IMG/VR virus record: IMGVR_UViG_3300005294_000001
Coordinates: 1-54,099 of that record
Direction: 5' to 3' (one strand)
Origin: a virus
Length of the DNA stretch: 54,099 nt
The notes under the pieces were generated by a model. That model saw nothing but the letters and a program-made list of their open reading frames with translations, was not told the DNA's origin and ran no database searches. Within the stretch, counting starts at the first letter, position 1, and every line of letters begins with the position of its first letter. Both the position numbers and the translations under genes were made by a program. Shown here in pieces: positions 11,026 to 48,611 of the stretch.

Positions 11026-12576
11026 ATGGCTATTCCATGTCAAGCATTTACCGACTTCCTTTCGCGCAAGAGCGAACACCTCGACGAAAACATCATCAAA
11101 TCCTTACACCCCACGGATACCTGGATTGGTCACGTATCCACGGGCCGCTTCGCCGCCGAAGATGGTGTCGAGCACACCTTCGATAGGTTTGAAAATGTAT
11201 TTCCTGACCTGTCAACCTGTTGGGAGGACGTTACGGCGACGTCCTGCGTGGGTAAACCCTGCGATCCGACCGAACAGAAGATCGGTTTGGGGTTCACTCG
11301 TGACTCCTACAAGCTTCAGCGCAAGTCGTATGCGACTGATTTGTTCTGTTTCGACCAGATTTTGAGCGCGGATCGGGCGAAGAAACAGTTTGCCCATGTG
11401 ATTCGCACGTTGCGACGGGCATCCAGCCTGATTGTCAGCGACCGTATGCGCCGGGAAGCGGCTCGCATTGCCAAGTATAAATGGGCAGCGGCCAGCGGGT
11501 TGACGGCAAATTCCTGGTATTGGAATACGGATTGCACGGTTCTGAACGTGGCAGTTAAGCCGACTTCGAAGATGACGGCACGGCACCTGCAACGGCGCGT
11601 GGAGCCTCAGATCCTTGAGGGTGCCTTGGGAGAGGACATTAACCGTGGAACACAGCCGATGCTGGAATATGTCAGCAGCATGGAAGAAGTCTGGAACATG
11701 GTTGAGGGTAACCCTGAGTTGTCCGACCATTGGCGTTTCCAGCAATGGGAAGATGCGTCGAAGTTCCACAAATACGGTTGGATGGGTAAAGTGGGCAATT
11801 TCGGTCTGCGTGCGGATACGATGCCGCTTAGGTTCTGCGACTTGAACACCCAGAATGCCGATGGCACATGGCAGTTACAGTTAATCCTTCCGTACACCAA
11901 CGTGGCGGCTACAGAAGGCATTAAGGAACAGGTCAATAGCCAGTTCTTGAATGCTCCGATTCAGATGAACTTCATCTGGCACCGATTGGCGATGACCTCG
12001 CTGGTTCGGGATACCACAAGCATTAACCCTGAAATGCCGTTTGCGGCCAGAGATTTCGCGGGCAAATGGCAGTTTGCGATGAATAACCTTACCTGCGGCT
12101 TGGATACCAACGGCAACCCGATTGCGGTTGATAATTCGCGTGGGAATAAGGGTAAATTCCTGGCCGACTTCTCGTTCGCTACGCAGGCTCAATATCCTGA
12201 GTTCGCGGAAGCGTTCCTGGCATTGCGTGAGCCTGCTTGCATCGTGGATATTCCACGTTGCGCGACGGATCCTGTGTGTTACGTGCAGGATTACAGTTCG
12301 GCTAACGCGGTATGCGCTACTGAGGACGAAACCATTACGGTTACGCCTGAGATTTCACCGGCTACCTCGACTTACGAGATTCCGATGAACTCGATTCAAT
12401 GCAATGGCATGATAGTCGTGCATGATGCAATCACTGGCGCGGCAACTCTGGCAGCTTTGGTTGCTCAGTTGAACTCCAAGGCGGCGGCACTAGGCACTTG
12501 GGCGGTTGCGGGTGGGGATATTACCCTGACCGGCACTGCTTGCAGCTCTATCGCCATTCCGTTCACCGTGGATTAG
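11026..12576 (+). CDS. Probable major capsid protein
   Basis: A 516-residue protein. No direct family motif that I can name, but the length, the position as the first gene of the rightward structural unit, the lack of signal or membrane segments and the following head-type small genes point to the capsid protein. Residues 1-425 would be the HK97-like core. The last 90 residues (from about 427) form a separate Cys-containing beta-rich module ending in TGTACSSIAIPFTVD, reminiscent of add-on decoration domains. No clear ribosome-binding site: the 15 bases before ATG are T-rich. Alternative: another abundant virion protein. Confidence 0.7.
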   Translation: MAIPCQAFTDFLSRKSEHLDENIIKSLHPTDTWIGHVSTGRFAAEDGVEHTFDRFENVFPDLSTCWEDVTATSCVGKPCDPTEQKIGLGFTRDSYKLQRKSYATDLFCFDQILSADRAKKQFAHVIRTLRRASSLIVSDRMRREAARIAKYKWAAASGLTANSWYWNTDCTVLNVAVKPTSKMTARHLQRRVEPQILEGALGEDINRGTQPMLEYVSSMEEVWNMVEGNPELSDHWRFQQWEDASKFHKYGWMGKVGNFGLRADTMPLRFCDLNTQNADGTWQLQLILPYTNVAATEGIKEQVNSQFLNAPIQMNFIWHRLAMTSLVRDTTSINPEMPFAARDFAGKWQFAMNNLTCGLDTNGNPIAVDNSRGNKGKFLADFSFATQAQYPEFAEAFLALREPACIVDIPRCATDPVCYVQDYSSANAVCATEDETITVTPEISPATSTYEIPMNSIQCNGMIVVHDAITGAATLAALVAQLNSKAAALGTWAVAGGDITLTGTACSSIAIPFTVD

Positions 12577-12949: not shown

Positions 12950-13273
12950 ATGCCAGAATTACTCGCAAACGACCATTCCTGCGTGACGTGCTTTCAGGGG
13001 CAGGAACTTGATTCCCTGATTATCGTGCTTCTCGCTACGAAGGCCGGTCTTACGCTGCCAGATGACCTGGACACGCTCGTAGACGATACGGCTTGTCTGC
13101 GTTGCTCCAGCGAAACGCAGCTTAAGCAGAGGCTTGCCGACTTCCTGTGGGAACAGAATTCGCCAGATTCCACGGCAGATGAACTCATGGCGCAAGGCAA
13201 GTGTTTGCAATGCGTGGATCCGCAGACCATCAAGGTTCTGACGCATCATCTGTTGGTTCTTGGATTGACGTAA
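12950..13273 (+). CDS. Cys-pair/YLL-family small protein, two modules
   Basis: A 107-residue protein with three CxxC-like pairs (CVTC, CLRC, CLQC), each followed by a helix ending in a leucine-rich turn. It is a diverged relative of the two genes at 13904 and 14141, from which it is separated by an HNH gene on the other strand. Possibly a zinc-bound or disulphide-free structural protein of the head-tail joint. Function unknown. Confidence 0.65.
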   Translation: MPELLANDHSCVTCFQGQELDSLIIVLLATKAGLTLPDDLDTLVDDTACLRCSSETQLKQRLADFLWEQNSPDSTADELMAQGKCLQCVDPQTIKVLTHHLLVLGLT

Positions 13274-13292: not shown

Positions 13293-13817
13293 CTAAACCG
13301 CTTTTTCTGATTGAATATGACGCCATGATTTATGGTGAACAATTCTAGAAATTGCACTTTGACCGATTCCAAATATAGTAGCCAGTTGTGTTTGGCTCTC
13401 ATTCGGGTGCCTTCGTCTTATATCAATAACCTGATCGACTGTTATTTTATGGGTTCTAACCGCTTCACCGCGAGTGGTTCTACCCTTAATAAACTTGTCG
13501 AATTGATTATCGGTCTGACTTCCAATCCAAAGATGATTTGGGTTCACGCACAAAGGATTATCGCATGTGTGGCACACACATTTGGATTTGGGTATTTCGC
13601 CAAAGTTTATAATCCAAGCCGCTCTATGGGCGTATATTTTCTTTCTCAGAGCTTTATGGCTACAGGTTTTAGAAATAACCCCATATCCATTTTCATTTAT
13701 GCAGGCCAACCAATTCCAGCATCCATCGGTTTTTTCAAACTTGGAGTTGAATCGTTGCACGAAGTCGTGAGAAAGACCTTGCGAATTCAGGAAGTCTACA
13801 GAAGTATGTGTTTGCAT
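13293..13817 (-). CDS. HNH homing endonuclease with C-terminal HTH, inserted antisense
   Basis: A 174-residue endonuclease of HNH_3 type: HRAAW (64-68), the CVCHTCDNPLCVNPNHLW core (80-97) with zinc-binding Cys and the catalytic His, then a C-terminal helix-turn-helix (123-168, KITVDQVIDIRRRH and GIGQSAISRIV) for site recognition. It lies antisense inside the rightward structural unit, between two members of the Cys-pair family, as expected for a mobile homing gene. It has its own frame intact. Confidence 0.9.
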   Translation of the reverse strand: MQTHTSVDFLNSQGLSHDFVQRFNSKFEKTDGCWNWLACINENGYGVISKTCSHKALRKKIYAHRAAWIINFGEIPKSKCVCHTCDNPLCVNPNHLWIGSQTDNQFDKFIKGRTTRGEAVRTHKITVDQVIDIRRRHPNESQTQLATIFGIGQSAISRIVHHKSWRHIQSEKAV

Positions 13818-13903: not shown

Positions 13904-14137
13904 GTGCCAGTGAGTTGTGAACCAGATGAACTGGTAGAGATTTCGACGTGCTATACCTGCATCCCGCCCGATATGGTCGATGCGGTAAAGATTTACCTCT
14001 TGGCAGTCACGGCGGGGCTTCAGGACATGACCCCTGAAGAATTGGTAGTGGCTGCTGCGTGCTATAATTGCGTTCCGAAAGACATGCAAAAATCGGTGCA
14101 GAATTATCTTCTGTGTCAGATAGCCAACGCTGCATAG
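13904..14137 (+). CDS. Cys-pair/YLL-family small protein, two modules
   Basis: A 77-residue protein starting at GTG 13904 behind a perfect AAGGAGG (spacing about 7), one of the strongest ribosome-binding sites in the window. It holds two copies of the motif CYxCxPxDM...YLL (CYTCIPPDM...IYLL and CYNCVPKDM...NYLL). Shares the MPVSC start with the next gene. Abundant product expected; probably structural. Function unknown. Confidence 0.75.
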   Translation: MPVSCEPDELVEISTCYTCIPPDMVDAVKIYLLAVTAGLQDMTPEELVVAAACYNCVPKDMQKSVQNYLLCQIANAA

Positions 14138-14140: not shown

Positions 14141-14359
14141 ATGCCCGTTTCATGCGATGCCCAAGACTTGGTGAATGGCGCAGCGTGTTTCTACTGCAAG
14201 AGTCCGAATCTGGATAACGTAGAAATATACCTGCTATGCGTAGTGGCTAATGGTGGTGTTGTTCCGCCTCCACCTGGAGGTGTCATTCTGGGCAATCCAG
14301 ATGAAGATTGGGGTTTTGGAGATCCCGGTGGTGACTTTGTGTTCGGTGTTCCTGACTAA
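14141..14359 (+). CDS. Cys-pair/YLL-family small protein with Pro/Gly tail
   Basis: A 72-residue protein: MPVSC start, one Cys-pair module (CFYCKSPNLDNVEIYLL), then a PPPPGG linker and an acidic aromatic tail (GNPDEDWGFGDPGGD). The tail is unlike its paralogues and could be a binding peptide. It follows the previous gene by 3 bases and precedes the fibre gene by 3. Confidence 0.7.
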   Translation: MPVSCDAQDLVNGAACFYCKSPNLDNVEIYLLCVVANGGVVPPPPGGVILGNPDEDWGFGDPGGDFVFGVPD

Positions 14360-14362: not shown

Positions 14363-15802
14363 ATGAAAAAGTTCCTTACGTTTTTGATGTGCATAGTGGC
14401 GGTGACAGGAATCGGAGCAACCATCCAATGGTATTCTCAGCAGCCGGTAACCACCACGTTCAAGAACAGCGACGTTATTGTATTGGAGACTACCGGACCT
14501 CAAGGTTACAAGTCTTTCACACTACTGAGCCTGAAGGGTGAGTTTGGAACGAATGGAGTATCCTATCAATACATTACAAATCTTACAGTTCTCAACGAGT
14601 TCCACGGAAAGACTTCGTTCAACTCCAATCTCTACGTCACAAATTTATTTCTTATCACTGCGACCAGCAATTACTACCTGTTCGACACTAATATCTACAA
14701 CAACAACACTTACGTATCTAACTACTTTGTAACGAACGTAATCAACAACGCAGCCGTTTCGAACGCATTCTTCACCAATTTCTACCTGACAAATCTGTAC
14801 CTGACAAATCTGACTGTCACCAACTACTACCAGGGAAGCACATTCCTGAGTGAGTACTTCAATACCAACATCTATATTAACGAGTTCGTCAGCAACTACT
14901 ACGTCACGAACTTGTTTACGAATGTTCAGCAGATTACGACCAATCTGATCACGCAAAACACGATTACAAACATTACGCTGTTGACGGTATCGAACGCCTA
15001 TTTCACCAATCTGTTCATCAGCCAGAACTTCACCAATTTCTATCTCTACAACACCAACATTTACAACGCGGATACATTCGTAAGCAATTACTTCACTACG
15101 AACGTGTTTCAGAACACGTACATGTCCAATTTCTTCCTTACCAACCTGATCTTTTACGATACCAACTACTACGTTACGTACGTTTCGACCACAAACTTCC
15201 TGTCGTACATAACTAACAATTTTGTCTCGAATTTCTTCAATACGAACATCTTCGTGAACAACTCGTATGTTTCGAACTACTTCACGACGAATTACAACCC
15301 GCTGATCCAGTATATCAGCAACTACACGTTCAATGTTGCTTGGCCGCTTACCAACGCGACACTCTACGGGACAACCACGTTCTCACCCGTAAGCGGAACG
15401 GCAGCGGGTAGGGTTAGCCTTTTAAGCTCAGGTGTAGAGACTATTTCTCTAGCAGCCTCAAATGGCGCGATAGCCGCAAATGCGGCTTGGTTCAAAACCA
15501 ATCTATGGTCTGGGCCTACTAATAACCTTCCCATGAACGCGCAGGACCAGTATTACACCACGTCCACGGACATAAATATAACCAACTTAAATAACCTTCC
15601 TCCTGCTGGATACGGTGCTAATGTGTTGCTATCCGTAAGCAATTCATCGGCGGCAAACATTGTGTGGAGATTTCCGTCCACTATAAAAATTCCAGAAAAC
15701 ACAAATGCCGTGGTTGTGTCCAATGGAACATACGGAGAACTTTCACTTAAGTACAGTCCGGTGGGGCCGCATACCCAAGCTGTTTACCGCCAGTTTCCAT
15801 GA
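14363..15802 (+). CDS. Exported fibre-like protein with Asn-Thr/aromatic repeats
   Basis: A 479-residue protein with a clear signal peptide (MKKFLTFLMCIVAVTGIGA). Residues about 75-320 are a low-complexity repeat in which units such as xSNYFxTN, NLYLTN and FNTNIY recur every 5-8 residues, with Asn, Thr, Tyr and Phe dominant; this is what a thin beta-solenoid or fibre would look like. The last 150 residues are ordinary and may be a trimer head (QDQYYTTSTD, NIVWRFPSTIKIP). A signal peptide is unusual for a tail fibre. It opens a row of exported genes; the next gene overlaps by 4 bases. Confidence 0.75.
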   Translation: MKKFLTFLMCIVAVTGIGATIQWYSQQPVTTTFKNSDVIVLETTGPQGYKSFTLLSLKGEFGTNGVSYQYITNLTVLNEFHGKTSFNSNLYVTNLFLITATSNYYLFDTNIYNNNTYVSNYFVTNVINNAAVSNAFFTNFYLTNLYLTNLTVTNYYQGSTFLSEYFNTNIYINEFVSNYYVTNLFTNVQQITTNLITQNTITNITLLTVSNAYFTNLFISQNFTNFYLYNTNIYNADTFVSNYFTTNVFQNTYMSNFFLTNLIFYDTNYYVTYVSTTNFLSYITNNFVSNFFNTNIFVNNSYVSNYFTTNYNPLIQYISNYTFNVAWPLTNATLYGTTTFSPVSGTAAGRVSLLSSGVETISLAASNGAIAANAAWFKTNLWSGPTNNLPMNAQDQYYTTSTDINITNLNNLPPAGYGANVLLSVSNSSAANIVWRFPSTIKIPENTNAVVVSNGTYGELSLKYSPVGPHTQAVYRQFP

Positions 15803-17235
15803 AAACTCTCATTCTCATTGCGTGCTTAATCGCCGCATCGGTTAATGCCGCAGACCAAATCGTGATTTCAGGAGTCGGAAACTGGACCGGCACAATCACG
15901 CTAACTCTTAGCCTTGGAACGGTCACAAACCCAGTAAACGCTACCAATATCTGGGTGAACACCTATGGCGGAACTCAGGCTGATGAGGGGCTATCGGTTA
16001 AAACAGACGCCTCAAGCAATGTGTTCTTTGGAGGATACTTCTCTGCTACAGCCAACTTCGGTCAAGGCAACGTGACGGCTTCTGGGGGTGAGGATATTGT
16101 AATCGCCAAGTATAACTTTGGCGGAACCAATCAGTGGGTTAAGACGTTCGGGAGCACAAGTAGCGATAGGTGTGATGCGATTGCGCTGGATAGCTCGGGC
16201 AATGTTTACGCAGTCGGTTATTTCAATGGCACGATAAACATGGGCGGAACCAATCTTGTGTCTACCGGTGGGCGTGACGTGTTCATTGCCAAATACAACA
16301 ATGCCGGAACGCATCAATGGTCACGCAAGTTCGGATCTGTTGGGGATGAAATAGCCTATGCAGTAACGGTTGATAGCTCTGGAGATGTATACATGTCTGG
16401 ATTCTTCCAAGGCACATCCAACTTCGGAACTACGAACATGAGTAGTGCGAACAACGGGTTGGATACGTTTGTTGCGAAGTACACGGGGACTACCGGAGCG
16501 GGGGTATGGTCAAAGCGGTTTAGCCCAAACAACAGCGATGACATCAGTTATGGAATAGCAGCCTGCCCTGACGGTGGGCTGATGGTGTGCGGAGTGTTCC
16601 AGGGAACATGTAATTTCGGAGGAACAAACCATCCACCAACGGGCGGTTACAACATGTATATCGTAAAGTTGAGCGGGTCCACGGGTGGATGGATATGGGA
16701 CTTTGCTTTTGGTGGCACTACAGACGATTTCGCGTATACGGTAGCGGTTGATTCCAGTAATAATGTTCTATTCGGCGGCTTCTTTAACGGAACGGTTAAT
16801 TTCGGTGGAGGAAACATTACCACAGCGGGAAGTGCTGACGGAGTAGCCGTTAAACTGAATTCATCCGGTGCTTATCAGTGGGCAAGGCAATTGGGAGGTA
16901 TAACTTCTGACACTGTAATGGGAACGGCATTTGACTCCAGTGGAAACGCTTTTGTTTCTGGAGCGTTCTCAAGTTCTGTGAATTTCGGAAGCGGTCCATC
17001 TTTAGTGAGTGCGGGTCAAAACGATGGATTCCTTGCAAAGTATAGTTCCGCAAACGTGCTTCAATGGGTTGACAGATTTGGAGGCACAGGATCAGAAGTT
17101 GCGAATTCTGTATCGGTGGACACTACGGGTTACGTGCTCTCAACAGGCTCATTTAGCACTTCTTTCAACTTCATGACAATTCCAGTCACTTCCGCTGGAC
17201 TTGGGGACATCTATCTTTGGCGTCATATTCCATGA
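15799..17235 (+). CDS. Exported seven-bladed SBBP-type beta-propeller
   Basis: A 478-residue protein with signal peptide (MKTLILIACLIAASVNAA). I count seven repeats of the form GGTxxDxAxxVAVDSSGNVYxxGxF followed by NFG and AKYxxxGxxQWxxxFG, the SBBP propeller motif of secreted bacterial proteins; blade starts fall near GGTQADEG, GSTSSDRC, GSVGDEIA, NNSDDISY, GGTTDDFA, GGITSDTV and GGTGSEVA. The fourth blade is the most diverged and carries Cys. Likely an adhesin or ligand-binding module outside the cell or on the virion. Coupled on both sides by 4-base overlaps. Confidence 0.85.
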   Translation: MKTLILIACLIAASVNAADQIVISGVGNWTGTITLTLSLGTVTNPVNATNIWVNTYGGTQADEGLSVKTDASSNVFFGGYFSATANFGQGNVTASGGEDIVIAKYNFGGTNQWVKTFGSTSSDRCDAIALDSSGNVYAVGYFNGTINMGGTNLVSTGGRDVFIAKYNNAGTHQWSRKFGSVGDEIAYAVTVDSSGDVYMSGFFQGTSNFGTTNMSSANNGLDTFVAKYTGTTGAGVWSKRFSPNNSDDISYGIAACPDGGLMVCGVFQGTCNFGGTNHPPTGGYNMYIVKLSGSTGGWIWDFAFGGTTDDFAYTVAVDSSNNVLFGGFFNGTVNFGGGNITTAGSADGVAVKLNSSGAYQWARQLGGITSDTVMGTAFDSSGNAFVSGAFSSSVNFGSGPSLVSAGQNDGFLAKYSSANVLQWVDRFGGTGSEVANSVSVDTTGYVLSTGSFSTSFNFMTIPVTSAGLGDIYLWRHIP

Positions 17236-18059
17236 AACGACTACTCGCACTAGCCGCAGTCCTGCTTCCAGTATACTTGTTCGCTCAGGGATTCGGATCG
17301 TTCTCGCATGATCAACCGTATCTTTCGGCGGGTGCTTCCTCTGGTGTAGTAGCCCTTCCAATGTTGCCGGATATACGATTTAGATGGGTGGCTAGTGATG
17401 TTTCAGTTGATGGTCCGGTGACAAACTGGTTTGATAGAATCGCCAGTGTTCCACTATCCCAGACAGTAATAGCCCATAGGCCAACCAAATCATTAGGTGG
17501 AGTTTACTTCGCAAATGCAAGCGCAACAGATATTAGGGCAGTTACAAACACATCTGCCATGACGTTTAATTCAATATCGCAAGCCATATTGATTGTAACC
17601 AGTAACGCTCTCCCGGTTTTTACTGGAGCCAACAACTATGGAAATTTTTGGGTAGAGAATAGTAATGGATATGGATTTCGGCTAAAGGACAACAACGCAG
17701 GGAGCATAACTTGGGAATTTGATAATAATGGTGGAGCCGCTGCCGAAGCTACACTTGTAAACTTTGGTGCCTCTATGCCTCAGGGTGTTCAGGCTTTTTT
17801 GTATATGGGTTACACCCAAACAAATTGGGCAGCATTTACTAATAACTCTCTATCTATTTCCAATACTACTCCTGCACTTGGAGGTACTGCTCCGATTCTT
17901 GGTGTACTTGGACGAGGGGCATTATGGTCAAATAGTAGTTCGTTCAGGGGATACGTCATGGAGGTGGTTGTGTGGACTAATGCCATGAATTTTACTCCAC
18001 AAATTATTAGCCAAGCATTCGATTATGTGACCAATACCTATGGGCATTTTAATCCATGA
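17232..18059 (+). CDS. Exported LamG/lectin-like protein
   Basis: 275 residues from the ATG at 17232, which overlaps the propeller stop as ATGA. A signal peptide (MKRLLALAAVLLPVYLFAQ) is followed by a concanavalin/LamG-like beta-sandwich: WFDRIASV, RPTKSLGGVYF, then a central IYMGY-type strand set and a late GYVMEVVVW strand typical of the fold's last sheet. LamG-like folds bind sugars or proteins. Probably part of the same exported adhesion set. Confidence 0.7.
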   Translation: MKRLLALAAVLLPVYLFAQGFGSFSHDQPYLSAGASSGVVALPMLPDIRFRWVASDVSVDGPVTNWFDRIASVPLSQTVIAHRPTKSLGGVYFANASATDIRAVTNTSAMTFNSISQAILIVTSNALPVFTGANNYGNFWVENSNGYGFRLKDNNAGSITWEFDNNGGAAAEATLVNFGASMPQGVQAFLYMGYTQTNWAAFTNNSLSISNTTPALGGTAPILGVLGRGALWSNSSSFRGYVMEVVVWTNAMNFTPQIISQAFDYVTNTYGHFNP

Positions 18060-18244
18060 AGATGTGCGTTAAATGGTTTATCGCTTTCATCCTTGTGACC
18101 ATCATGTGGAAACTTGCCTACCGAAGCGGAGAGATTAACGGGGAACATGGAATTGGCTATTGGGAAGGCTGGCAAGATGCTATGCTGCAAACTGATTACG
18201 GAAAGAAACCCTATGACTGCAACAAACGACCGCTAGAAGATTAA
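18056..18244 (+). CDS. Small membrane-anchored protein
   Basis: A 62-residue protein with one N-terminal hydrophobic span (about 5-21, VKWFIAFILVTIMWKLA) and a soluble tail (EGWQDAMLQTDYGKKPYDC). ATGA overlap with the lectin-like gene. Function unknown. Confidence 0.65.
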   Translation: MKMCVKWFIAFILVTIMWKLAYRSGEINGEHGIGYWEGWQDAMLQTDYGKKPYDCNKRPLED

Positions 18245-18246
18245 CT

Positions 18247-18633
18247 ATGAAAACCCTAAAACAAGTCCTACTGTTCACCATCGCAATTCTGGCTTTTTTT
18301 TTACCAGATACGATCTCTCAAGCGCAAGCCGCTGGACCAGCGACTAATGTCGTGACTCTGTTCTGGACAGCGGCACCCCCAACATCACCCGCTGTTCCAT
18401 TCTTTTACGAGGTTCATCAGTCAACGAATCTAGCTCTTAATGTGTGGACTGTAATCGCCAACGTTCCTTCAAACACGCTTCAATTCAGCTTGAGCGTTGA
18501 TAAAGACATGAAGTCGTTTAAGGTTCGAACGGTTAATTCCACCAATTCAATATGGGTTGGCGATTTTTCGAATGTCGCCAGTACAGCTTGGCCCGGTACC
18601 GGCGGCAATCTAGCAATACGTTTAGGGCCATAA
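18247..18633 (+). CDS. Exported fibronectin-III-like small protein
   Basis: A 128-residue protein with a long signal peptide (to about residue 28, SQAQAA) followed by a single beta-sandwich like FnIII: VVTLFWTAAP, FFYEVHQSTN, WTVIANVPSN and FKVRTVNS strands. Verrucomicrobial secreted proteins often carry this VHxSTNL pattern. Last of the exported set. Confidence 0.65.
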   Translation: MKTLKQVLLFTIAILAFFLPDTISQAQAAGPATNVVTLFWTAAPPTSPAVPFFYEVHQSTNLALNVWTVIANVPSNTLQFSLSVDKDMKSFKVRTVNSTNSIWVGDFSNVASTAWPGTGGNLAIRLGP

Positions 18634-18669
18634 TATTTCCACCAATACCAGGAAGGTAAAGGCTTTCAG

Positions 18670-18972
18670 ATGTCAGAAGAAACAACCCCAAAACTAATGA
18701 ACAGCCTTAAGGTAGAAGAAACATCCATAGAAAATGGCAAGAAACTAGACCGTATAATGATGTTCCTAGAGGGTGCGGGAGATGACGCACCGGGACTATT
18801 GCATAACGTCGCCAAGCACAGTCATGCGCTTTACGGCAACAATGGTCAGGATGGTCTAATCAGCCGCGTGGCTATCATGTGGAGAATCCATGTCTGGGTT
18901 CTTTGCAGCGTAAGCGCAGGATTCGGATTCATGCTAAAAACCGTCATCGAATCCTTAATGAAACATCCCTAA
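18670..18972 (+). CDS. Membrane protein with C-terminal span (lysis-region candidate)
   Basis: A 100-residue protein: charged N-terminal half (MSEETTPKLMNSLKVEETS), a DDAPGLLHNVAKHSHALYG turn and one C-terminal hydrophobic span (about 73-95). This plan is common for small proteins beside phage holins (antiholin or anchor type). AAGG lies in the leader but at poor distance. Function by position only. Confidence 0.6.
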   Translation: MSEETTPKLMNSLKVEETSIENGKKLDRIMMFLEGAGDDAPGLLHNVAKHSHALYGNNGQDGLISRVAIMWRIHVWVLCSVSAGFGFMLKTVIESLMKHP

Positions 18973-18975
18973 ACT

Positions 18976-19302
18976 ATGAAAAGCTGGAGAACAACAATCA
19001 GTGCTGCGGTCACTGTAACTGGAACTGCCTTGGTTGGAGTTGGTGGACTAACTCAGTTGAACCAACTCAACCCCAATTCCAAAGGAATGTCTGATGATCA
19101 GATGGCAGTGATGTGGTACATCATGGCTGCTGGATTTGTTTTGTCAGCAATTGGAAAGGGTTTGGGACTTCTATTTGCTGCTGACGCAACAGTATTGAAG
19201 AATGTTGTCCAACAGGCTAACGACATTGCCACACAAACCAACGTGAATACAGTTCAGATTGCCGACACTAAAGCAGTTGTTGAAAATCAGCTAAAAGTCT
19301 GA
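18976..19302 (+). CDS. Two-span membrane protein, holin candidate
   Basis: A 108-residue protein with two hydrophobic spans (about 8-26 and 47-68) and a polar helical C-terminal tail (NVVQQANDIATQTNVNTVQIA). Size and topology fit a class II holin, which would permeabilise the inner membrane. It follows the preceding membrane protein by 3 bases. No endolysin is recognisable nearby, which keeps the call tentative. Confidence 0.55.
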   Translation: MKSWRTTISAAVTVTGTALVGVGGLTQLNQLNPNSKGMSDDQMAVMWYIMAAGFVLSAIGKGLGLLFAADATVLKNVVQQANDIATQTNVNTVQIADTKAVVENQLKV

Positions 19303-19314
19303 CTCAATAGCCAC

Positions 19315-19947
19315 ATGAAACCGCTACGCAGCCCAAAAGACGAAGGTGACAAACACGTACACCCTCACCCTAATCGTCAGGCTACGCTTCGTGACTTGCT
19401 TGAATTGGAAGTCAGGCTAAAAGATGCCATATCCAAGATTGGAGACATGAATCCGCTTGCCACAAAGAAGGATTTGCTGGCAATGGAGCACAGGCTGAAG
19501 GATGAATTGGTTGATGACAAAGAATTATTGGCTACTGAGGTACGTCTTAGTAGGCTGATCAAGCAGCCCCGATTTGATTGGACCATCGGGATTGTTCAAT
19601 CAAAGGTCCAAAGAAAGATAGAACGCATGGAAATCCAACTGACAAATGAGCAGCAAGTAACAGTAACACTGACCCCGAAAACAAGTGCTGGAAAACCAGC
19701 TACATTGGACGGTGTTCCCACATGGGAAGTAATCACCGGCGAGTCTACGGTTACGGCATCGGCAGATGGTCTGTCTGCCCTGATCGTTAGCTCCGACAAT
19801 CCTGGTGATACCCAGATCCTAGTCAAAGCTGACGCCGATCTCGGCGCTGGTGTTGTTGAAATCTCTGAGGTTCTTGATGTGCATGTTGCCGGAGCACAGG
19901 CCGCGAACCTTGGCGTTTCTGTTGGAACCCCAGAACTCAAGCCGTAA
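19315..19947 (+). CDS. Coiled-coil plus Ig-like domain protein
   Basis: A 210-residue protein. Residues 1-108 are charged and helical with heptads (LLELEVRLKDAISKI, LLAMEHRLKDELV). From residue 109 (MEIQLTNEQQVTVTLTPK) an Ig-like domain follows, with the pattern GKPATLDGVPTWEV, ADGLSALIVSSDNPG and VLVKADADLG that is common in phage proteins. An internal ATG at 19627 could start the Ig part alone. A terminator-like hairpin follows the stop. Confidence 0.65.
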   Translation: MKPLRSPKDEGDKHVHPHPNRQATLRDLLELEVRLKDAISKIGDMNPLATKKDLLAMEHRLKDELVDDKELLATEVRLSRLIKQPRFDWTIGIVQSKVQRKIERMEIQLTNEQQVTVTLTPKTSAGKPATLDGVPTWEVITGESTVTASADGLSALIVSSDNPGDTQILVKADADLGAGVVEISEVLDVHVAGAQAANLGVSVGTPELKP

Positions 19948-19955
19948 CCCCGTAG

Positions 19956-19973
19956 CCCCTGCGGTATCAGGGG
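19956..19973 (+). terminator. Hairpin after the Ig-like gene
   Basis: CCCCTG (19956-19961) and CAGGGG (19968-19973) with a 6-base loop, 8 bases behind the stop, followed by a mixed rather than pure T stretch. A weak rho-independent terminator or processing site is the best reading. Confidence 0.5.
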
Positions 19974-19989
19974 CATTCACTTTCTAATT

Positions 19990-20376
19990 ATGAAGCTACT
20001 AAATCGGTCACTAATAACCCTGTCCATACTCATGCTGTTGGCAGGATGCGCCACGGTTTATACGGGTGTGGTTACCATCACTTCCGTGGTGGACACAGGC
20101 ATGAAGGCATGGGCTGAGGTTTCCGCCAAAGGAATGAGTTCAGCGGCAGTCGATGCCAAGGTAATCGAAGTCCACAACAAGTATCGAGAGGCGTGTGCGG
20201 TAGCCAAGATCGCCCTGGAATCATACAAGGCAAACGGGGATCAAGCGGCATACCTTCAGGCATTCGCGGTAGTTAAGGCTACGGCGGCTGATTTGATTCA
20301 GTTGATTGCGCCACTCATTAATCCAAGCAAAGCAGCCAAACTCCAAACAGATCTATCCAAAGCGACTAAAATATGA
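19990..20376 (+). CDS. Small lipoprotein (possible outer spanin)
   Basis: A 128-residue protein with a lipoprotein signal peptide: LLAGC lipobox ending at Cys 20. The mature part is alanine-rich and helical (VIEVHNKYREACAVAKIALE, AAKLQTDLSKATKI). A lipid-anchored helical protein beside holin-like genes fits an outer spanin, which links to the outer membrane in Gram-negative lysis; no inner partner is identified except perhaps the next gene, which lacks a membrane segment. Tentative. Confidence 0.6.
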   Translation: MKLLNRSLITLSILMLLAGCATVYTGVVTITSVVDTGMKAWAEVSAKGMSSAAVDAKVIEVHNKYREACAVAKIALESYKANGDQAAYLQAFAVVKATAADLIQLIAPLINPSKAAKLQTDLSKATKI

Positions 20377-20603: not shown

Positions 20604-22448
20604 ATGCCCGCAAATGATAATGTCAGGTGGGCAGACGGCACATTGGATTTCTCTCTTGGGGTTGATTCAAACCGTCCTCCCACTCTTGTCTCTGCCAACA
20701 ATCCAGGTGGATTGCCGCGTAATGCCTTGGGATGGGCTGATAATGCGGCGGTGCGTGGCGGTGGCGTGATTCAGCGGTATGCGTGGCAACCGATAACGAC
20801 TGTCCACGACTCCACGGGACTTTATCAAGGTGGCATCATGTACGAGCAGGCTAATGGCTTGCCATACCTTGTCGTTGCGATTTCGGGTCGGTTCTATCGC
20901 ATTCGACTCGACACAGATAACTCCATAGATGACATAACGGGTCCGGTCGTATTTCCTCCAACGGAACCACTTTACCACTTCGTTCAAGGCGAGGAATTCA
21001 TGGTGGTTCAGGCGGGTGATAATACGACTCTCCCATTGTTCTTTGATGGAACAACTACGCGGCAAAGCGTTGGGTTGGGAGTCGCTGCGCCTTTAAGAGA
21101 ACTCCCCGCTGCTGGTCCGATGGTCTACTATCAAGGAAGAATATGGTATGCGTATTACCGAAGTTACACTGCGGGGGATATTGTGGGTGGACCAAGCGGT
21201 ACAGCTCCTTACTTCCTACGCGATTCGGTCTTGAAAGTGACAGAGAACCCGCTGGCTATAGGCGGGGACGGTTTTGCGGTTCCGACGCAGGCAGGAAACA
21301 TCAGGGCATTGCAATACGCGGCAAACCTCGATACCGCGCTCGGTGAAGGCACGCTTTACGTGTTCACCAGAAAGCAGGTTTATGCTCTGGACGTGCCTAT
21401 TAGCCGAGAGGCATGGTCTAAGGCGGCTGATGGCCCTGGCAACTACGGAACGCCTAACCAGAGGGTTGTACAGCGCAATAACGGTGGTTGTAGTGATAGA
21501 TCGGTAGTGGCAGTCAATGGCGACCTATTCTATCAGGCGTTGACCCCTTCCATAAACTCCCTATTCACCGCTTTACGCTACTTCAATCAATGGGGTAACA
21601 AGCCGATTTCTGCCAACATCGACCGCGCTCTCCGATTCAATAACCGTGGACTCATGGTGTACTCGAGTGGGATTGAGTACGATAACTACCTGCTACAAGC
21701 GATTTTGCCGGAACAAGTGCCTCAAGGGGTGGTTCACAAGGCGATTGCCCCTCTGGATTTCGACCCGATTTCGACTCTTGGCCAAGATAGTCCTCCAGCA
21801 TGGTCTGGACTCTGGGAAGGCTTGGACATTCTCCAGATGTTCAACGGCGACTTTGGTGGGCGTGAACGCGCCTTTGCCATGACGGTTAGCCGCGTGGATC
21901 AATCCATTCAGCTCTGGGAGTTGACCAACGACACTCGATTCGAGAACGGCGACGAACGGGTATCGTGGCTGATAGAGACTCCAGCTTGGACTTGGCAACG
22001 GGAATTCGACCTTAAATGGCTGGATGGAGGAGAGATTTGGCTGGATCGCATCTATGGAACCGTTGACGGCATAGTTGAATACCGTGTAGACGGAAACCCA
22101 TGCTGGCAATTCTGGCACGCCTTCCGTGACTGCAAGGCCAGAAACTCTTGCGAGGATGCGGTGGATCCCGTGTGCTATCCACAACAGGAATATGCCGAAG
22201 GCGACAAGTTTCCCGTCACCCTCCCTAAACCGCCAACTCCTCCTTGCTACGAGAACAACCATAGGCCAATGACCCTTGGACACCAATTCCAAGTGCGGAT
22301 TAAGATCAAGGGATGGTGTCGAATTCGCGGTATCATCGTCTACGCTTTGCCATACGTAAAGCAGCCTTTCGAGAACCTTGAGACTCCACCGGGACCTTTT
22401 ACGGAAATCCAGCAATCAGTCATATCAGCTAACAGCCCTGCATTCTAA
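20604..22448 (+). CDS. Tail hub / DNA-stabilisation protein, gp10-like
   Basis: A 614-residue protein whose N-terminus (DGTLDFSLGVDSNRPPTLV, then NALGWADNAAVRGGGV) matches the tail-tube/stabilisation proteins of short-tailed phages (P22 gp10 and tubular B-like), which form a propeller-like hub that closes the portal channel and carries fibres. Repeated beta strands with GGxxYE and YVFTRKQVYALD fit that fold. The C-terminal part has several Cys. The fibre gene overlaps its stop by one base (TAATG). Confidence 0.7.
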   Translation: MPANDNVRWADGTLDFSLGVDSNRPPTLVSANNPGGLPRNALGWADNAAVRGGGVIQRYAWQPITTVHDSTGLYQGGIMYEQANGLPYLVVAISGRFYRIRLDTDNSIDDITGPVVFPPTEPLYHFVQGEEFMVVQAGDNTTLPLFFDGTTTRQSVGLGVAAPLRELPAAGPMVYYQGRIWYAYYRSYTAGDIVGGPSGTAPYFLRDSVLKVTENPLAIGGDGFAVPTQAGNIRALQYAANLDTALGEGTLYVFTRKQVYALDVPISREAWSKAADGPGNYGTPNQRVVQRNNGGCSDRSVVAVNGDLFYQALTPSINSLFTALRYFNQWGNKPISANIDRALRFNNRGLMVYSSGIEYDNYLLQAILPEQVPQGVVHKAIAPLDFDPISTLGQDSPPAWSGLWEGLDILQMFNGDFGGRERAFAMTVSRVDQSIQLWELTNDTRFENGDERVSWLIETPAWTWQREFDLKWLDGGEIWLDRIYGTVDGIVEYRVDGNPCWQFWHAFRDCKARNSCEDAVDPVCYPQQEYAEGDKFPVTLPKPPTPPCYENNHRPMTLGHQFQVRIKIKGWCRIRGIIVYALPYVKQPFENLETPPGPFTEIQQSVISANSPAF

Positions 22449-23140
22449 TGCTCATCGACGGCGACAGATTAAAAGTGGTCAATGCTCCGATAGCGCGAAC
22501 CAAGTTGGGCAGCGCAACGGGGCAAGATGTCACTTTCCTGCAAATCGCTTTGGCGGCTGAAGTGGCGGCTAGAACAGCGGCAGATGCGGCATTATCAGCG
22601 TCTATAGCGGCTGAAACAGCGGCACGGGCAGCAGCCGATGCAGCTTTGGCGGCGGATATAGCAACGGAGGCAGCGGCCAGAATCGCAGCCGATAACGCAT
22701 TGGATTCTGATATTTCAGATGAAACAGCAGCCAGAATAGCAGCAGTCTCAGCAGAGGAAGCAGCCAGAATAGCCGCAGACGGTGTATTGACTTCCGATTT
22801 AGCGCAAGAAGTCTTGGACAGGATAGCCGCAGATACCGTACTAACAAACGATCTAGCTACGGAAACCTCAGAACGTATAGCGGCTGATAACGCTATAATA
22901 GCCGGAATAGTCCGTGGAACAGTGGCAATCGGAAACGCTGCAACATCTGGTAGCGTAACTGGTCTTGCGCTTGCATACACTCCCGCATCAGTATCCGCGA
23001 CAGTCATATCACCTGTTGGCGGGTTGACCTTGTTTGCATCACTAGAAGGCGATCCGACAACAGACGGATTTGATTTCCTGGTGGGACCGGTGGCTACCGA
23101 CAGTGCGGATTACAAACTGGCTTATATTTTGAAACAGTGA
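22448..23140 (+). CDS. Tail fibre with alanine-rich trimeric coiled coil
   Basis: A 230-residue protein. Residues about 35-150 are repeats close to AETAARIAADxALxxDI, a right-handed trimeric coiled-coil type seen in phage fibres and adhesins. The N-terminal 30 residues would attach to the hub; the C-terminal 80 residues (LAYTPASVSATVISP, DFLVGPVATDSADYKL) form a small beta head. The next gene starts within its stop as GTGA. Confidence 0.8.
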   Translation: MLIDGDRLKVVNAPIARTKLGSATGQDVTFLQIALAAEVAARTAADAALSASIAAETAARAAADAALAADIATEAAARIAADNALDSDISDETAARIAAVSAEEAARIAADGVLTSDLAQEVLDRIAADTVLTNDLATETSERIAADNAIIAGIVRGTVAIGNAATSGSVTGLALAYTPASVSATVISPVGGLTLFASLEGDPTTDGFDFLVGPVATDSADYKLAYILKQ

Positions 23141-25140
23141 TTCAAACGTGTCCAAATCGTATCGACTGCGAATCAGCCCTTCTCACGAATTACTCGTCAG
23201 AAGGAGCAGAGCCGTTTCCGCCGTATTACTCGGTGGTATTTCCGAATCCAGAGAATCCGATTGATCGTCAGTGGCAGATGGCGGGTTGCGTGTATGTTTG
23301 CGTTTCCTACGTATCGCAGCAGGAAGCGGATTTGTGCGCCTTGAGGCAATCTGTCTTGTGCACCAATCCACCGGGAGAGGAAGTATGGTATTCCGCTGAA
23401 GCTACCTGTTGTTCCCCGTGTCCTGGTGGTGAAGGTGAATATTGTTACACTGTTCCAGCTGGAATGTTCATCGCCAAGACGTTTGCTGAAGCAGAGGCGC
23501 AAGCGCAAGCGTATGCGTGTCAGCAGGCGATAAACACTCAGGTCTGTTTCAATAACCCGAATTGCCCTGATTGCATTCCTGTTCCGCCTCCACCGAATCC
23601 ACCAAATCAACCTCCGAATCCTCCGGTAACACCGAATTCCACCCTAGGAAATCTTCCTAGATGTGCCTGCCTTGGTGTTCACTACTCCGGAAGCATTGAA
23701 GCCAACGGTTCGGTTGGAGTTGAGTCATGGGCAGTAGTTGGGAATATTCCTCCAGGATTAACCTTCGTTGGAGTTGGAACCGGAGCAATAATCGTTGGCA
23801 CTCCGACAGTAAGCGGAACATACTCATTTCAGGTAATTGCCTATCAGATAGGCGGTAGTTATTCCACTAGGATTTTCACCATTCAGGTCTTGGAAGTCAC
23901 TACTACAGCTTTACCCAATTTTGTCATAGGAACCCCATACAGCTATCAACTAGCTGCCTTTGGAGGTTCCGGCAATTATACTTGGAGTGTCGCCACTGGA
24001 ACATTGCCTGACGGATTAGACCTGTCTCAGACTGGTCTTATCTCAGGTACACCCACAGCATTTGCTACAGGCGGCACTCTGACTTTCGAAGTTCGAGATA
24101 TAACGTGTGAGAATGCGGAAAGAATCACGCTTACCCCAAGAGTCGCACTGGACGCAGTAAGCACAACTACAGTTAAGACTGAAAGAGGGTTTCGCGAGTA
24201 CACTACCGTTCTGGATACTGGAACACTGTATAAGCGAGTGGACTACGCCGGAAGCATGGAGCAAATTGCTTTCCCGAATTTCAATTCAGATCCAGCCGTA
24301 GATGCGACTCAATGCGGTGGAATGCAGCTCATTTACAGCGGATACGACCAAATTGATAACAGCGGAAACATCCTGTTCAGGCATCGCAAGGACATGATGG
24401 TGATGTGCGCGGCGAGTCAGCCTAGTCTTTTTGAGGCTGATGCCGATACGAGTCTTATTACGCCAATTTACAGCCCTCCGGCATTGTATGGCTATTGCTG
24501 GCCTGATGATCCAGACAGTTGTTCCACATGCGACACCGACGAAATCAATTGGAGCTTGCTTCGTGACGATGCCACATTTGGGGCCATTGATTATCCGAAC
24601 AACATGGTTTGGAATGAATCAAATGTAAGCAAGACTGACACACTATTAACCTATGCCGGAAATGCCAATCTTACAGGTGGTGTAATTCTGAATCCTACGA
24701 CACAAGGATTCCCGATAAACACAGGAAATAACACCTACGCTCAAGCTTTCCCATTCGTAAGGCTTTCATCTAGCGGTGGATTCTCCGCTACTCTAAGCGA
24801 ACCCTACACCGATGCCGATGCCGAGGCGACAAAGGTTGTCTATACCGGCACATCGAAAACGGCTGAGAACCATCCGAATTATCAGATAACAGGTGCCAAC
24901 AATTTCATAACCAGACGAAGCAGGACTACCGATGTTGCTTTCACAATCACTTGCACCCGATTGATCGTTGGTAGGGATTACCAAGTGACCTACGAACTAT
25001 TCACTTCCGCAGGAGTAGAAACAGAGGTTGAGATTGATTTCACAGCCGACGATACCACCCATGTTATAAACGGGATTGTTCCACCTCCAGATTTGAACGC
25101 TAACATAACTGTCAGAAACGCGAGAATCCGATACGCCTGA
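23137..25140 (+). CDS. Large receptor-type protein with He_PIG Ig domains
   Basis: 667 residues from a GTG overlapping the fibre stop (GTGA). The N-terminal 150 residues are Cys-rich (CVYVCVSYVSQQEADLC, CCSPCPGGEGEYC), then a PPPPNPPNQPPNPP linker, then two He_PIG-type Ig domains near 180-250 and 255-330 (LPDGLDLSQTGLISGTPT is characteristic). The C-terminal half is beta-rich with a late ADxTHVINGIVPPP. He_PIG domains are adhesive. Together with the hub and fibre it probably forms the host-binding device. Confidence 0.7.
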   Translation: MIQTCPNRIDCESALLTNYSSEGAEPFPPYYSVVFPNPENPIDRQWQMAGCVYVCVSYVSQQEADLCALRQSVLCTNPPGEEVWYSAEATCCSPCPGGEGEYCYTVPAGMFIAKTFAEAEAQAQAYACQQAINTQVCFNNPNCPDCIPVPPPPNPPNQPPNPPVTPNSTLGNLPRCACLGVHYSGSIEANGSVGVESWAVVGNIPPGLTFVGVGTGAIIVGTPTVSGTYSFQVIAYQIGGSYSTRIFTIQVLEVTTTALPNFVIGTPYSYQLAAFGGSGNYTWSVATGTLPDGLDLSQTGLISGTPTAFATGGTLTFEVRDITCENAERITLTPRVALDAVSTTTVKTERGFREYTTVLDTGTLYKRVDYAGSMEQIAFPNFNSDPAVDATQCGGMQLIYSGYDQIDNSGNILFRHRKDMMVMCAASQPSLFEADADTSLITPIYSPPALYGYCWPDDPDSCSTCDTDEINWSLLRDDATFGAIDYPNNMVWNESNVSKTDTLLTYAGNANLTGGVILNPTTQGFPINTGNNTYAQAFPFVRLSSSGGFSATLSEPYTDADAEATKVVYTGTSKTAENHPNYQITGANNFITRRSRTTDVAFTITCTRLIVGRDYQVTYELFTSAGVETEVEIDFTADDTTHVINGIVPPPDLNANITVRNARIRYA

Positions 25141-25141
25141 T

Positions 25142-25849
25142 ATGGGGTGCTTTAAAGAATTATCTATAGCAGAAGATGCCGCAGCACTACCGTATGCCTA
25201 TTACAAGTGCGATGAACCTGCGGGTTCTTTGGTTGCTGTTGACTCAATAGCCGGTTTCGATCTTGTGACCGTAAACCCGATTGTTAAGTGGCCAACGGCA
25301 AAGATTGGAACTGCATTTTTTGATCCGTTATTGAATTTGCAGGATTCAATAGCAAGCACGCATTGGGATTTTGCGGCTACCGGATTCACAGTCAGACTTT
25401 GGTTTGAACTGAACACTGTTCCTGTCTCAAATGCCTTTTTCATTCTAAACGTAAATTCTTCTCCATCTAATATCACTCAATGGGATCTTACGTTGCAATC
25501 CAGCTTGGTTCCGTCATTCCGGCAATTTCCACGATTCAGAATTGTCCTAAATGGTATATCGTCATTCGTTGATGGTCCTGATTTGACCGACACAACTGCC
25601 TTTCACCGTTTGATGTGCGGTTGGGAGAAGGGTGTTGGGGTTTGGATCAAGTTCGATAACGACGCCACTATTTCGGTTGCTAACACAGACCCTTCTCTAA
25701 ATGGTGGAAATTTGACTAAGTTTTTTCTTGGTCCGACAAACGAACCGCAGGCAATGGGTATTGACGAGGTTGGAATTTGGAACCGGACTCTTACGGCTGC
25801 GGAGATTCTTGCAGATTGGAATGGCGGTGCAGGTGTAACATATCCTTAA
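25142..25849 (+). CDS. LamG-like lectin-fold protein
   Basis: A 235-residue protein of the LamG/concanavalin type: AYYKCDEPAGSLVAVDSIAG at the start, GTAFFD, FTVRLWFELN and the C-terminal GIDEVGIWNRTLTAAEILAD, which is the diagnostic last strand and helix of LamG-like domains. No signal peptide, unlike the lectin-like protein at 17232. Likely a virion component for glycan binding. Confidence 0.8.
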   Translation: MGCFKELSIAEDAAALPYAYYKCDEPAGSLVAVDSIAGFDLVTVNPIVKWPTAKIGTAFFDPLLNLQDSIASTHWDFAATGFTVRLWFELNTVPVSNAFFILNVNSSPSNITQWDLTLQSSLVPSFRQFPRFRIVLNGISSFVDGPDLTDTTAFHRLMCGWEKGVGVWIKFDNDATISVANTDPSLNGGNLTKFFLGPTNEPQAMGIDEVGIWNRTLTAAEILADWNGGAGVTYP

Positions 25850-42905: not shown

Positions 42906-43193
42906 CTAATGTTTCCTCATGTGTTCGATCATTCCATCTGCGCACCGTTTGACCGCCAGATTAGCCATTGCCACTTTTAACGCCTGGACGCTGTTGGGGT
43001 AGCATTGCTCCTGTTCCAACCAGCCAAGCAAATTCTTTGCAGGCTCAGTGTCGTGGCGATAGTCCGTAAGCAAATCCGCCATTTCGACAGCTTCGTTGTA
43101 TTCCCGCATTGCAGGGGTCATTTCGATTTTAGTGGGTTTCATATCTAATTTAAATTTGGTGGTATAGAATCCATCCATAGCGTCTAGATTCAT
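42906..43193 (-). CDS. Small hypothetical protein
   Basis: 95 residues from the ATG at 43193, chosen because GAGGAG stands 4-5 bases before it; a longer reading to 43301 lacks this. Helical (MREYNEAVEMADLLTDYRHD, SVQALKVAMANLAVKRCADG). Not recognised. Confidence 0.65.
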   Translation of the reverse strand: MNLDAMDGFYTTKFKLDMKPTKIEMTPAMREYNEAVEMADLLTDYRHDTEPAKNLLGWLEQEQCYPNSVQALKVAMANLAVKRCADGMIEHMRKH

Positions 43194-43200
43194 AAACTCC

Positions 43201-43431
43201 TCAAGGATAGACGAAATTAGTAAACGGATGATCACGCACAATATCGTTGAAGGTTTGACGTGCCACCCATGCGGCATTCGTCCCAACTGGAGAATTTGCA
43301 TTGTGCGGAATGTGACGAGCGGTTAATTGCCACAAGCAATCTTCACCTATTCCCACAGTTCCACGATCTAGCTTAGAGATGGCTTGCCTTATAGCTTTCG
43401 CCATGTCCTTTTTGAATAATTCAGCATTCAT
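43201..43431 (-). CDS. Small hypothetical protein
   Basis: A 76-residue protein (FKKDMAKAIRQAISKLDRGT, WVARQTFNDIVRDHPFTN). Start context GAAAGAATATG is shared with the gene at 43505-43738. Not recognised. The following 73-base gap holds a small CCGGT-ACCGG hairpin. Confidence 0.6.
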   Translation of the reverse strand: MNAELFKKDMAKAIRQAISKLDRGTVGIGEDCLWQLTARHIPHNANSPVGTNAAWVARQTFNDIVRDHPFTNFVYP

Positions 43432-43504
43432 ATTCTTTCAATAGTTTCCCCGGTTAATCACCGGCCATTGCTCCAGGTTGCTGCCTGAAGCAAGGGCGGA
43501 GGAT

Positions 43505-46671: not shown

Positions 46672-48531
46672 TCAAGGGAAAGTTTTAACAATCGGCGGAT
46701 TTGAATGCCAGTTGTAGGGCAGATTCCACGTCATGCGGAGGGTTAAACCGTATGTGGCAGGGGTGTCTTGATAGGCTCCAATGTCCCAATAATCGCCACG
46801 GGGTTTGCCGTTTAAATCAGTGGTGAACAGGTGGTTAAGGTTGGTTCCGGCGACACTGGCTGGGGAACCGGTCTTGAGATGCCAGTTGTGGGTGAATGGT
46901 GAGGTATAGACGTTTGTCGGGTCTTGTACGGACTCACCGGGGCCGAAGTGCCAGCCGTAGATGGGTTCCTGGAACCACGCGAGAGCGGTATAGATGTTGT
47001 AGGATTGATTGGTCTTGCCTCCACCGGAGATGAGGTTGTTCTGGATGACGTAGTTGGAGGGGTTGGTGCCGGAGAACATGAAGATGGTGCCGTTGGGATT
47101 GTTGGCGAGGGTGTTGTTGTACCAACGGATTGGACCCCAAGTGCCGCCCCATTCGGAGATGCGATAATCTTTGCCGTTGGCGTCGATGATGTTGTTTCGG
47201 AAAGTGAGGTTGGCGGATTGCTCGTAGGTAAGGAGGGAGGTGCAATTGGAGACTGTGTTGGCGGAAATGATGACGTTGGTGGAATTGCCGTAGACAGAGA
47301 TGCCGTTGCCGTGAATACCGATTACTTCTTTGACGGTGTTGCCGTGGAGGAGGCCATTGGTGGCCGCGTTGAAGTAGATTCCGGTGCCATTGATGCGGTA
47401 GATGAGGTTATTGGTGATTTGTGCGCCTCGGGAACCGTTTACCAGCATCCCACGAGAGATGAGGGAGTCATGGATGGAGTTGTGGGAGACTATGGCGTTG
47501 GAGCCGCGCTCGATGTCGATGATTGGACCGGAATTGAAGGATTTGAAGAAATACAAGTTGTTGGAGGTGACGGTGACGTTGTGGGTTATCCAATCGGAAT
47601 TTCCGATAGCGGCGAATTGACCGGAATAGCCGTTTTCGTTGGGAGGTTGATAATAGCCGCGTGCTTCGAAGCCGGTGATTTTAACGTCATGCGCGAACCC
47701 TTGAAAGGCGCAGCCGCGTCGGGCAATGGCTATTTGGTTGGTGTTTGGGTTACCATTTCCGATTGGCCACAGGTAGATACGGTTTTGCGAGGTGCGAACG
47801 GCCCATTCTCCTTGGGTATCGATGAATTGCGGGTGGTTTATCAGGGCATAATAGCCGTTTCGGTCGGTGTAGGTGGGTGTGGAATTGGCAAATCGGATGG
47901 TATTTGAGGCTTGGACGTAATTGGTGATGGGACATACCACCGTGGAGTTGCCAGTTACCCAGACGGCAGTGAAACATTCATTGTAATAGCCGTTGGTTTG
48001 GGTGAGGTAGGTTTTGTCGCGTATCCAGGTAGTTGAAATGTTGGTAGGCTGGACAGGTCGCCACTCCGAAAGCACTTCCCAGAAGATTTTGTCGGTGGGA
48101 TCGGGTTCTTGGCTCCATTGGCAGAGATTGGTGCCGTTCCATAGCATGGTCGGAAGGCAGTTGGATATACCGGTGGGGATGGTGTTGCGCCATATTTTTG
48201 ACCAGTTGGTGGATCCGCCGCAATCGATAGCGTTGGTGCAGCGAATCCAAGGGTTGGTGATTAGGGTGGATCCGTCGAGTATGGCTTTTCCGCTGCCCCA
48301 AACAGATGTCCCGAAGTAAGAAACTCCAGAGCAAGCTGTGATATTTCCCCAATACACCACACCACCCTTGAAGGTGACGGTATCACCGGGAACAAGGTTG
48401 TCTCGGCAAGTCTTTCTCGGAGCGTTTGTGGAAGTTCCAGAATTTGTGTCGGATCCGGTTGCATAGTCTATGAAGTAGTTGGATGCATTCGAAGTCAGGC
48501 AGGAAAGCAATAGCAGAACAATCAGTTTCAT
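46672..48531 (-). CDS. Exported right-handed beta-helix protein (tailspike/lyase-like)
   Basis: 619 residues from the ATG at 48531. A signal peptide (MKLIVLLLLSCLTSNAS) precedes a parallel beta-helix: the opening NYFIDYATGSDTNSGTST and KTCRDNLVPGDTVTFKGG are typical, and rungs such as VSHNSIHDS, ITNNLIYRINGTGIYF, LLHGNTVKEV and VIISANTVSN repeat every 20-25 residues. It ends with a parallel-helix cap segment (LNGKPRGDYWDIGAYQ). Such proteins bind or cleave polysaccharides. A signal peptide on a phage protein in the portal operon is odd. It starts right behind a terminator, so expression may depend on readthrough. Confidence 0.85.
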   Translation of the reverse strand: MKLIVLLLLSCLTSNASNYFIDYATGSDTNSGTSTNAPRKTCRDNLVPGDTVTFKGGVVYWGNITACSGVSYFGTSVWGSGKAILDGSTLITNPWIRCTNAIDCGGSTNWSKIWRNTIPTGISNCLPTMLWNGTNLCQWSQEPDPTDKIFWEVLSEWRPVQPTNISTTWIRDKTYLTQTNGYYNECFTAVWVTGNSTVVCPITNYVQASNTIRFANSTPTYTDRNGYYALINHPQFIDTQGEWAVRTSQNRIYLWPIGNGNPNTNQIAIARRGCAFQGFAHDVKITGFEARGYYQPPNENGYSGQFAAIGNSDWITHNVTVTSNNLYFFKSFNSGPIIDIERGSNAIVSHNSIHDSLISRGMLVNGSRGAQITNNLIYRINGTGIYFNAATNGLLHGNTVKEVIGIHGNGISVYGNSTNVIISANTVSNCTSLLTYEQSANLTFRNNIIDANGKDYRISEWGGTWGPIRWYNNTLANNPNGTIFMFSGTNPSNYVIQNNLISGGGKTNQSYNIYTALAWFQEPIYGWHFGPGESVQDPTNVYTSPFTHNWHLKTGSPASVAGTNLNHLFTTDLNGKPRGDYWDIGAYQDTPATYGLTLRMTWNLPYNWHSNPPIVKTFP

Positions 48532-48546
48532 ACGGGTTCGGATACT

Positions 48547-48575
48547 AAAAACCCCCATAGAACAGCTATGAGGGT
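48547..48575 (-). terminator. Terminator before the beta-helix start codon
   Basis: Read leftward: a 9-bp stem with one G-U (48552-48560 with 48566-48574), loop CTGTT, followed by five T. The T-run ends 15 bases before the ATG of the beta-helix gene. It ends the portal-scaffold-GroES unit and may work as an attenuator for the next gene. Confidence 0.8.
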
Positions 48576-48611
48576 TCACTGATGAATTACGTGCAGGTCC
48601 AATCCCGGAAT

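Follow-up and report, generated by a model that had tools for sequence, protein, structure and literature searches.

The stretch of DNA analysed here (the window; 54,099 bases, one virus record, IMGVR_UViG_3300005294_000001) carries five adjacent open reading frames between the gene for the major capsid protein and that for a conserved hub-like protein (Table 1). In agreement with the original prediction, the proteins starting at 14363, 15799, 17232 and 18247 are predicted to begin with a signal peptide (SP), and the one at 18056 has a membrane helix. The beta-helix protein encoded at 46672-48579, which had been added to this group, is also SP-bearing, with cleavage predicted at MKLIVLLLLSCLTSNA^SNY when translation starts at an internal ATG near 48531. 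Apart from these, the only SP call in the window is the lipoprotein at 19990.

Table 1. Genes of the cassette and its surroundings in the window
Feature	Position	Strand	Remarks
Major capsid protein	11026..12576	+	HK97-type fold nearest phage N4 (model); upstream border of the cassette
Three small Cys-rich proteins	12950-13273, 13904-14137, 14141-14359	+	Clade-wide module family
Asn/Thr-repeat fibre-like protein, 479 aa	14363..15802	+	Predicted SP, residues 1-19
SBBP beta-propeller repeat protein, 478 aa	15799..17235	+	Predicted SP, residues 1-17; Pfam SBBP E 9.4e-16
Lectin-like protein (LamG/ConA-like, weak), 275 aa	17232..18059	+	Predicted SP, residues 1-18; Pfam E 0.0036
62-aa protein	18056..18244	+	One predicted N-terminal membrane helix without cleavage site; 56% identical in L002
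128-aa protein, FnIII-like by appearance only	18247..18633	+	SP by scorer
Lipoprotein (LLAG^CAT), spanin-like at sub-threshold level	19990..20376	+	By scorer; adjoins putative lysis block
Conserved virion (hub-like) protein, 614 aa	20604..22448	+	Downstream border of the cassette
SP-less fibre/adhesin-like genes	22448..25849	+	22448, coil repeats; 23137, Ig (He_PIG); 25142, LamG-like (by eye)
Right-handed beta-helix protein	46672..48579	-	Pfam Beta_helix E 5.5e-20; SP by scorer

SPs were called with a home-made, rule-based scorer (charge of the n-region, a 9-residue hydrophobic core and the -3/-1 rule) and not with SignalP; lambda, T7, M13 and N4 served as controls. The scorer was positive on lom, Rz and bor of lambda and on pIV of M13, placed M13 pIII and pVIII near its threshold, and found no SP in lambda J, T7 gp12 or T7 gp17. 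By this scorer, the window SPs have the basic n-region, hydrophobic core and -3/-1 site of substrates of Sec and signal peptidase I, and cleavage is predicted at MKKFLTFLMCIVAVTGIGA^TIQ in the Asn/Thr fibre, at MKTLILIACLIAASVNA^ADQ in the propeller and at MKRLLALAAVLLPVYLFA^QGF in the lectin-like protein, where the conserved mature N-terminus QGFGSFSHDQPY follows. The tail fibre and lectin-like genes of the cultured Verrucomicrobia phage P8625 gave no SP, which argues against SPs being general to Verrucomicrobia phages.

Four-base ATGA overlaps join 14363 to 15799, 15799 to 17232 and 17232 to 18056, and thereby fix the SP-bearing start codons of 15799 and 17232. Thus, the start codon of the lectin-like gene is ATG 17232, and not TTG 17217 as had been assumed, and the proposed coupling by overlaps holds at three of the four junctions, with a 2-base gap between 18244 and 18247. 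The domain names given to these genes fared unevenly. The SBBP repeats of the propeller reach 57.9 bits in Pfam against a cut-off of 20.5, in four stretches; the LamG match of the lectin-like protein is weak; and 18247 matches no Pfam family at E<=1, so that fn3 has no support in the window, although fn3 is matched by proteins occupying the slot of 18247 in relatives. For the 14363 fibre, no match was found among phage-fibre families, nor for its N- and C-terminal parts among phages and PHROGs; its C-terminal domain appears to resemble phage fibre tips, and an AlphaFold2 model of the protein (pLDDT 26) was set aside.

The Cys-rich proteins share a module (AxCFxC...YLLC..A) that is perhaps a virion anchor. 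In much of the clade it is encoded immediately downstream of the capsid gene, either as a protein of its own or as part of a fusion with a fibre or LamG body. An ORF resembling HNH-type homing endonucleases by eye is found on the opposite strand within the structural gene block (13293-13817, minus). The hub role of 20604 is suggested by its position and conservation. Ahead of the minus-strand beta-helix gene, positions 43000-46600 contain short ORFs only and changes of GC skew; small genes or an origin could lie there. Similar-looking SP-bearing beta-helix proteins occur in the downstream cassette of the relatives L068, L088, L097 and L118.

An AlphaFold2 model of the capsid protein (44 relatives as input; pLDDT 75.6) had the N4 capsid as its top Foldseek match (9e99, E 1.2e-11, prob 1.00). 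By this modelled HK97 fold, nearest to that of N4, the window virus is an N4-like tailed phage (Caudoviricetes), and probably a short-tailed one. The same model argues against a membrane-bearing, lipid-coated or extruded virion, in which SPs would be nothing unusual. The capsid, terminase and portal candidates had no match among PHROG families, nor had the capsid among annotated phages; the terminase and portal candidates, at 5027 and 50433, are conserved and syntenic, and had no credible sequence match in PDB. The capsid proteins of the window and the clade contain many conserved cysteines (e.g. C74, C79, C108, C405), which is unusual for a capsid assembled in the cytosol. A capsid profile found 123 relatives in IMG/VR, many on 50-59 kb contigs, and the related phages come from soil and freshwater; 80 of the 123 were retrieved, and 75 related loci entered the SP counts. 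A terminase profile matched none of ~85,000 bacterial and archaeal genomes. The capsid profile matched two short metagenome-bin contigs (a Pedosphaera sp. and an Actinomycetota bin) and one of 293 Pedosphaera-order genomes; with so few matches, a Verrucomicrobiota host is a lead only.

Judged from the predicted SPs of these loci, an SP-bearing adhesin slot is a trait of the whole clade. Among plus-strand genes lying up to 10 kb downstream of the capsid gene, SPs were called in 104 of 678, compared with 8 of 781 upstream; for minus-strand genes downstream the count was 9/259 (75 loci). When genes of at least 100 aa were counted after deduplication, in loci with both borders, SPs were present in 25/137 genes between capsid and hub vs 3/286 elsewhere (odds ratio 21, p 1.5e-10, kinship among the phages being ignored). 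Kinship inflates such p-values but not the pattern, because there is little relationship among the SP-bearing bodies. The enrichment stays at every score cut-off tried, from 3.8 to 5.0, and the concentration in the capsid-hub slot is about 10- to 20-fold over the 75 loci. At least one SP was found in 57 of these loci; L067 and L111 are SP-bearing as well, and were missed only through long false 5' extensions. Most of the 96 distinct SP proteins resemble fibres, lectins, FnIII proteins, propellers or beta-helix proteins; some others are lipoproteins from the lysis block next to the slot.

In the orthologues of L100, L107, L109 and L118, the SP drifts and takes indels, whereas identity over the 40 residues that follow is 63-93%, a pattern expected of cleaved SPs. 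The +1 residue is most often Gln, in 16 of 78 clade SPs; Pedosphaera-order loci have an equal share (6/29), for which reason a Q-rule host restricted to Bacteroidetes was dropped. The idea that the genes act as a set is not borne out by the nearest relative, L002 (capsid 90%, portal candidate 82% and hub 80% identical). Its SP-bearing fibre is 57-60% identical to that at 14363, but its propeller is relocated and only 32% identical, its lectin body is replaced, and no counterpart of 18247 or of the beta-helix protein is detectable by sequence. In the lectin gene, the first 32 residues, comprising the SP and about 14 mature residues with QGFGSFSHDQPY, are shared between the window and L002, and the remainder is unrelated. 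A conserved start with an exchanged body is what receptor-binding proteins usually show. Giant fibres of three relatives (L107:5890-10800, L109:12887-16384 and L118:12624) have about 65 residues ahead of a signal-like hydrophobic segment, and the mature motif QPAPPVLRSPLTTN, which follows this segment, is also seen after ordinary SPs.

The original prediction took an SP as a sign that a protein is not of virion type. This proved too simple, since some SP proteins of the clade carry virion fibre modules and the set lies within a block of virion genes. In the L077 protein at 12250, the N-domain of T4 gp9/10-type connectors comes immediately after the SP: position 2 of the phrog_677 profile aligns at residue 20 (E 6.9e-11), and position 1 of Pfam T4_gp9_10_N at residue 21 (E 5.2e-5, slightly under the cut-off). 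A phage tail-fibre domain forms the C-terminal end in L124 (phrog_9017, E 3.4e-4), and SP proteins of the slot have collagen repeats in L070 and YadA-head repeats in L060. SP-less adaptor-type fibres also occupy the slot (L111, L114), and in some relatives the Cys-rich module is fused to LamG or fibre bodies with no SP.

Enzyme domains occur as well. An SP-bearing subtilase lies in the L002 cassette (17587-20097; Peptidase_S8, E 5.4e-49), followed by Ig-like and other repeats, and an FGE-sulfatase domain (E 1.2e-43) was found among the clade SP proteins; for these, secretion fits better than virion docking. The sulfatase match possibly corresponds to L077:13785-16235, an SP protein of 816 aa with a match to phrog_18508 ('kinase', E 4.3e-39) in its C-terminal part.

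Export signals on phage fibre or adhesin genes are unexpected, because known phages build their tail fibres within the cell, and fibre assembly in tailed phages is regarded as purely cytosolic. From their sequences, the cassette proteins are very likely exported from the cytosol. Secretion directed by the phage, which the original prediction had offered beside capture from a host, is well supported by the conservation of predicted SPs across the clade, and capture is plausible for the propeller, relatives of which (mostly 26-42% identity) occur in 51/97 Pedosphaera-order genomes. We tentatively favour the reading that the slot between capsid and hub is a variable cassette of fibre- or adhesin-like preproteins that would be exported through Sec and dock on virions. 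The proteins would be synthesised late in infection as preproteins, exported by the host Sec system, cut by signal peptidase I and folded outside the cytosol. The short mature N-terminus, being conserved where the body is swapped, may act as a docking peptide that can be combined with different binding domains. Once lysis opens the inner membrane, the exported proteins would dock on virions, which would receive their receptor-binding parts in a last step and from outside. Docking at lysis is the end use that we put first, though only provisionally. The wider proposal, of a large clade of environmental N4-like phages with Sec-routed receptor-binding fibres and with virions completed outside the cytosol at lysis via the docking peptide, is more tentative still. 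We know of no tailed phage that loads fibres from the periplasm, and the SP-less genes 22448, 23137 and 25142 could be the receptor-binding parts of the virion, which would speak against docking.

Only slightly less probable than docking is a reading in which export takes place but the proteins do not bind to virions. On the host surface or in the periplasm, they would then serve as adhesins, decoys or enzymes built from phage-fibre and host-secretome modules. Receptor masking with superinfection exclusion, clumping and surface remodelling are roles proposed for such proteins. The clean SPs, the secreted-enzyme domains in some clade members, the frequency of propeller relatives in Pedosphaera-order genomes and the separate SP-less fibre-like genes behind the hub are all consistent with it, as are SP-bearing genes of Porphyromonas gingivalis phages (PMC10367356). 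Such a role is harder to reconcile with a cassette inside the virion gene block, with the virion-attachment module right behind the SP in L077 and the fibre C-domains, and with LamG bodies that carry an SP-less Cys-rich N-module in other clade phages. It is unlikely that the hydrophobic N-termini are uncleaved anchors retained in the virion or the inner membrane. The short basic n-regions, -3/-1 sites and +1 Gln preference, along with the abrupt change at the predicted cleavage site, where drift gives way to conservation, argue against anchors, despite the plain membrane protein at 18056 and the fibres at L107:5890, L109:12887 and L118:12624 with their ~65 residues ahead of the hydrophobic segment. 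Least probable of all is that host secretome genes were recently captured with SPs that are now vestigial, the proteins folding in the cytosol as ordinary virion parts, because, although proteins secreted by bacteria typically contain domains such as SBBP, LamG, fn3 and beta-helix, SP character is kept clade-wide (capsid identity down to ~36%) and on many unrelated kinds of fibre, including phage-type ones.

The cassette proteins resemble phage tail fibres and receptor-binding proteins (T4 gp9/gp10-type, branched podophage) in their position among virion genes, their repeat-rich bodies and their short conserved N-terminus with an exchanged binding domain, T4_gp9_10_N itself being present in L077. 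Unlike the fibres of lambda (J and stf), T7 (gp17) and P8625, which have no SP, they have a predicted cleavable Sec SP; cytosolic synthesis without an SP, a mark of tail fibres, is thus not what the cassette proteins of the window or the clade display. Filamentous M13 has virion proteins with cleaved SPs (pIII and pVIII), but its ssDNA virion is extruded and has no HK97 capsid, in contrast to the HK97-type capsid modelled here. Lambda lom and bor, spanins and SP/SAR endolysins undergo Sec export during infection, as we propose for the cassette, but these are small envelope proteins or lytic enzymes, whereas here large fibre-like adhesin families lie beside the capsid gene. Phage-encoded Sec-exported proteins such as lom, bor, spanins and SP endolysins have been reviewed (PMC6116005). 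The P. gingivalis phages (Nixviridae) have SP-bearing genes of unknown function, proposed to modify the outer membrane, and their host-adapted SPs frequently have Gln at +1, as in our clade; they are other phages, of another host phylum, and neither a fibre cassette nor virion modules are reported in the part of the source considered (PMC10367356). C-type lectin proteins that are targets of DGRs occur as adhesins in both phage and cell-surface forms, the phage versions being reported as SP-less and the surface versions as SP-bearing, and the survey regarded the lack of an SP as pointing to a phage origin of an adhesin, and an SP as pointing to a cellular gene (PMC6199706). Our literature search, which covered open-access papers, found no mention of tail fibres with SPs, or of any phage clade whose fibre cassettes carry them. 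What appears to be new here is such a clade, with SP-bearing fibre/adhesin cassettes; phage-exported proteins as such were already known.

In summary, a clade whose adhesin slot regularly contains predicted SPs breaks the rule that an SP indicates a cellular gene, and would mislead virus/host annotation. The cassette also offers interchangeable binding domains in a form amenable to study, with a conserved stretch at the N-terminus that may serve for docking. The clade points either to virion completion outside the cytosol or to a new way for a phage to coat the surface of its host.
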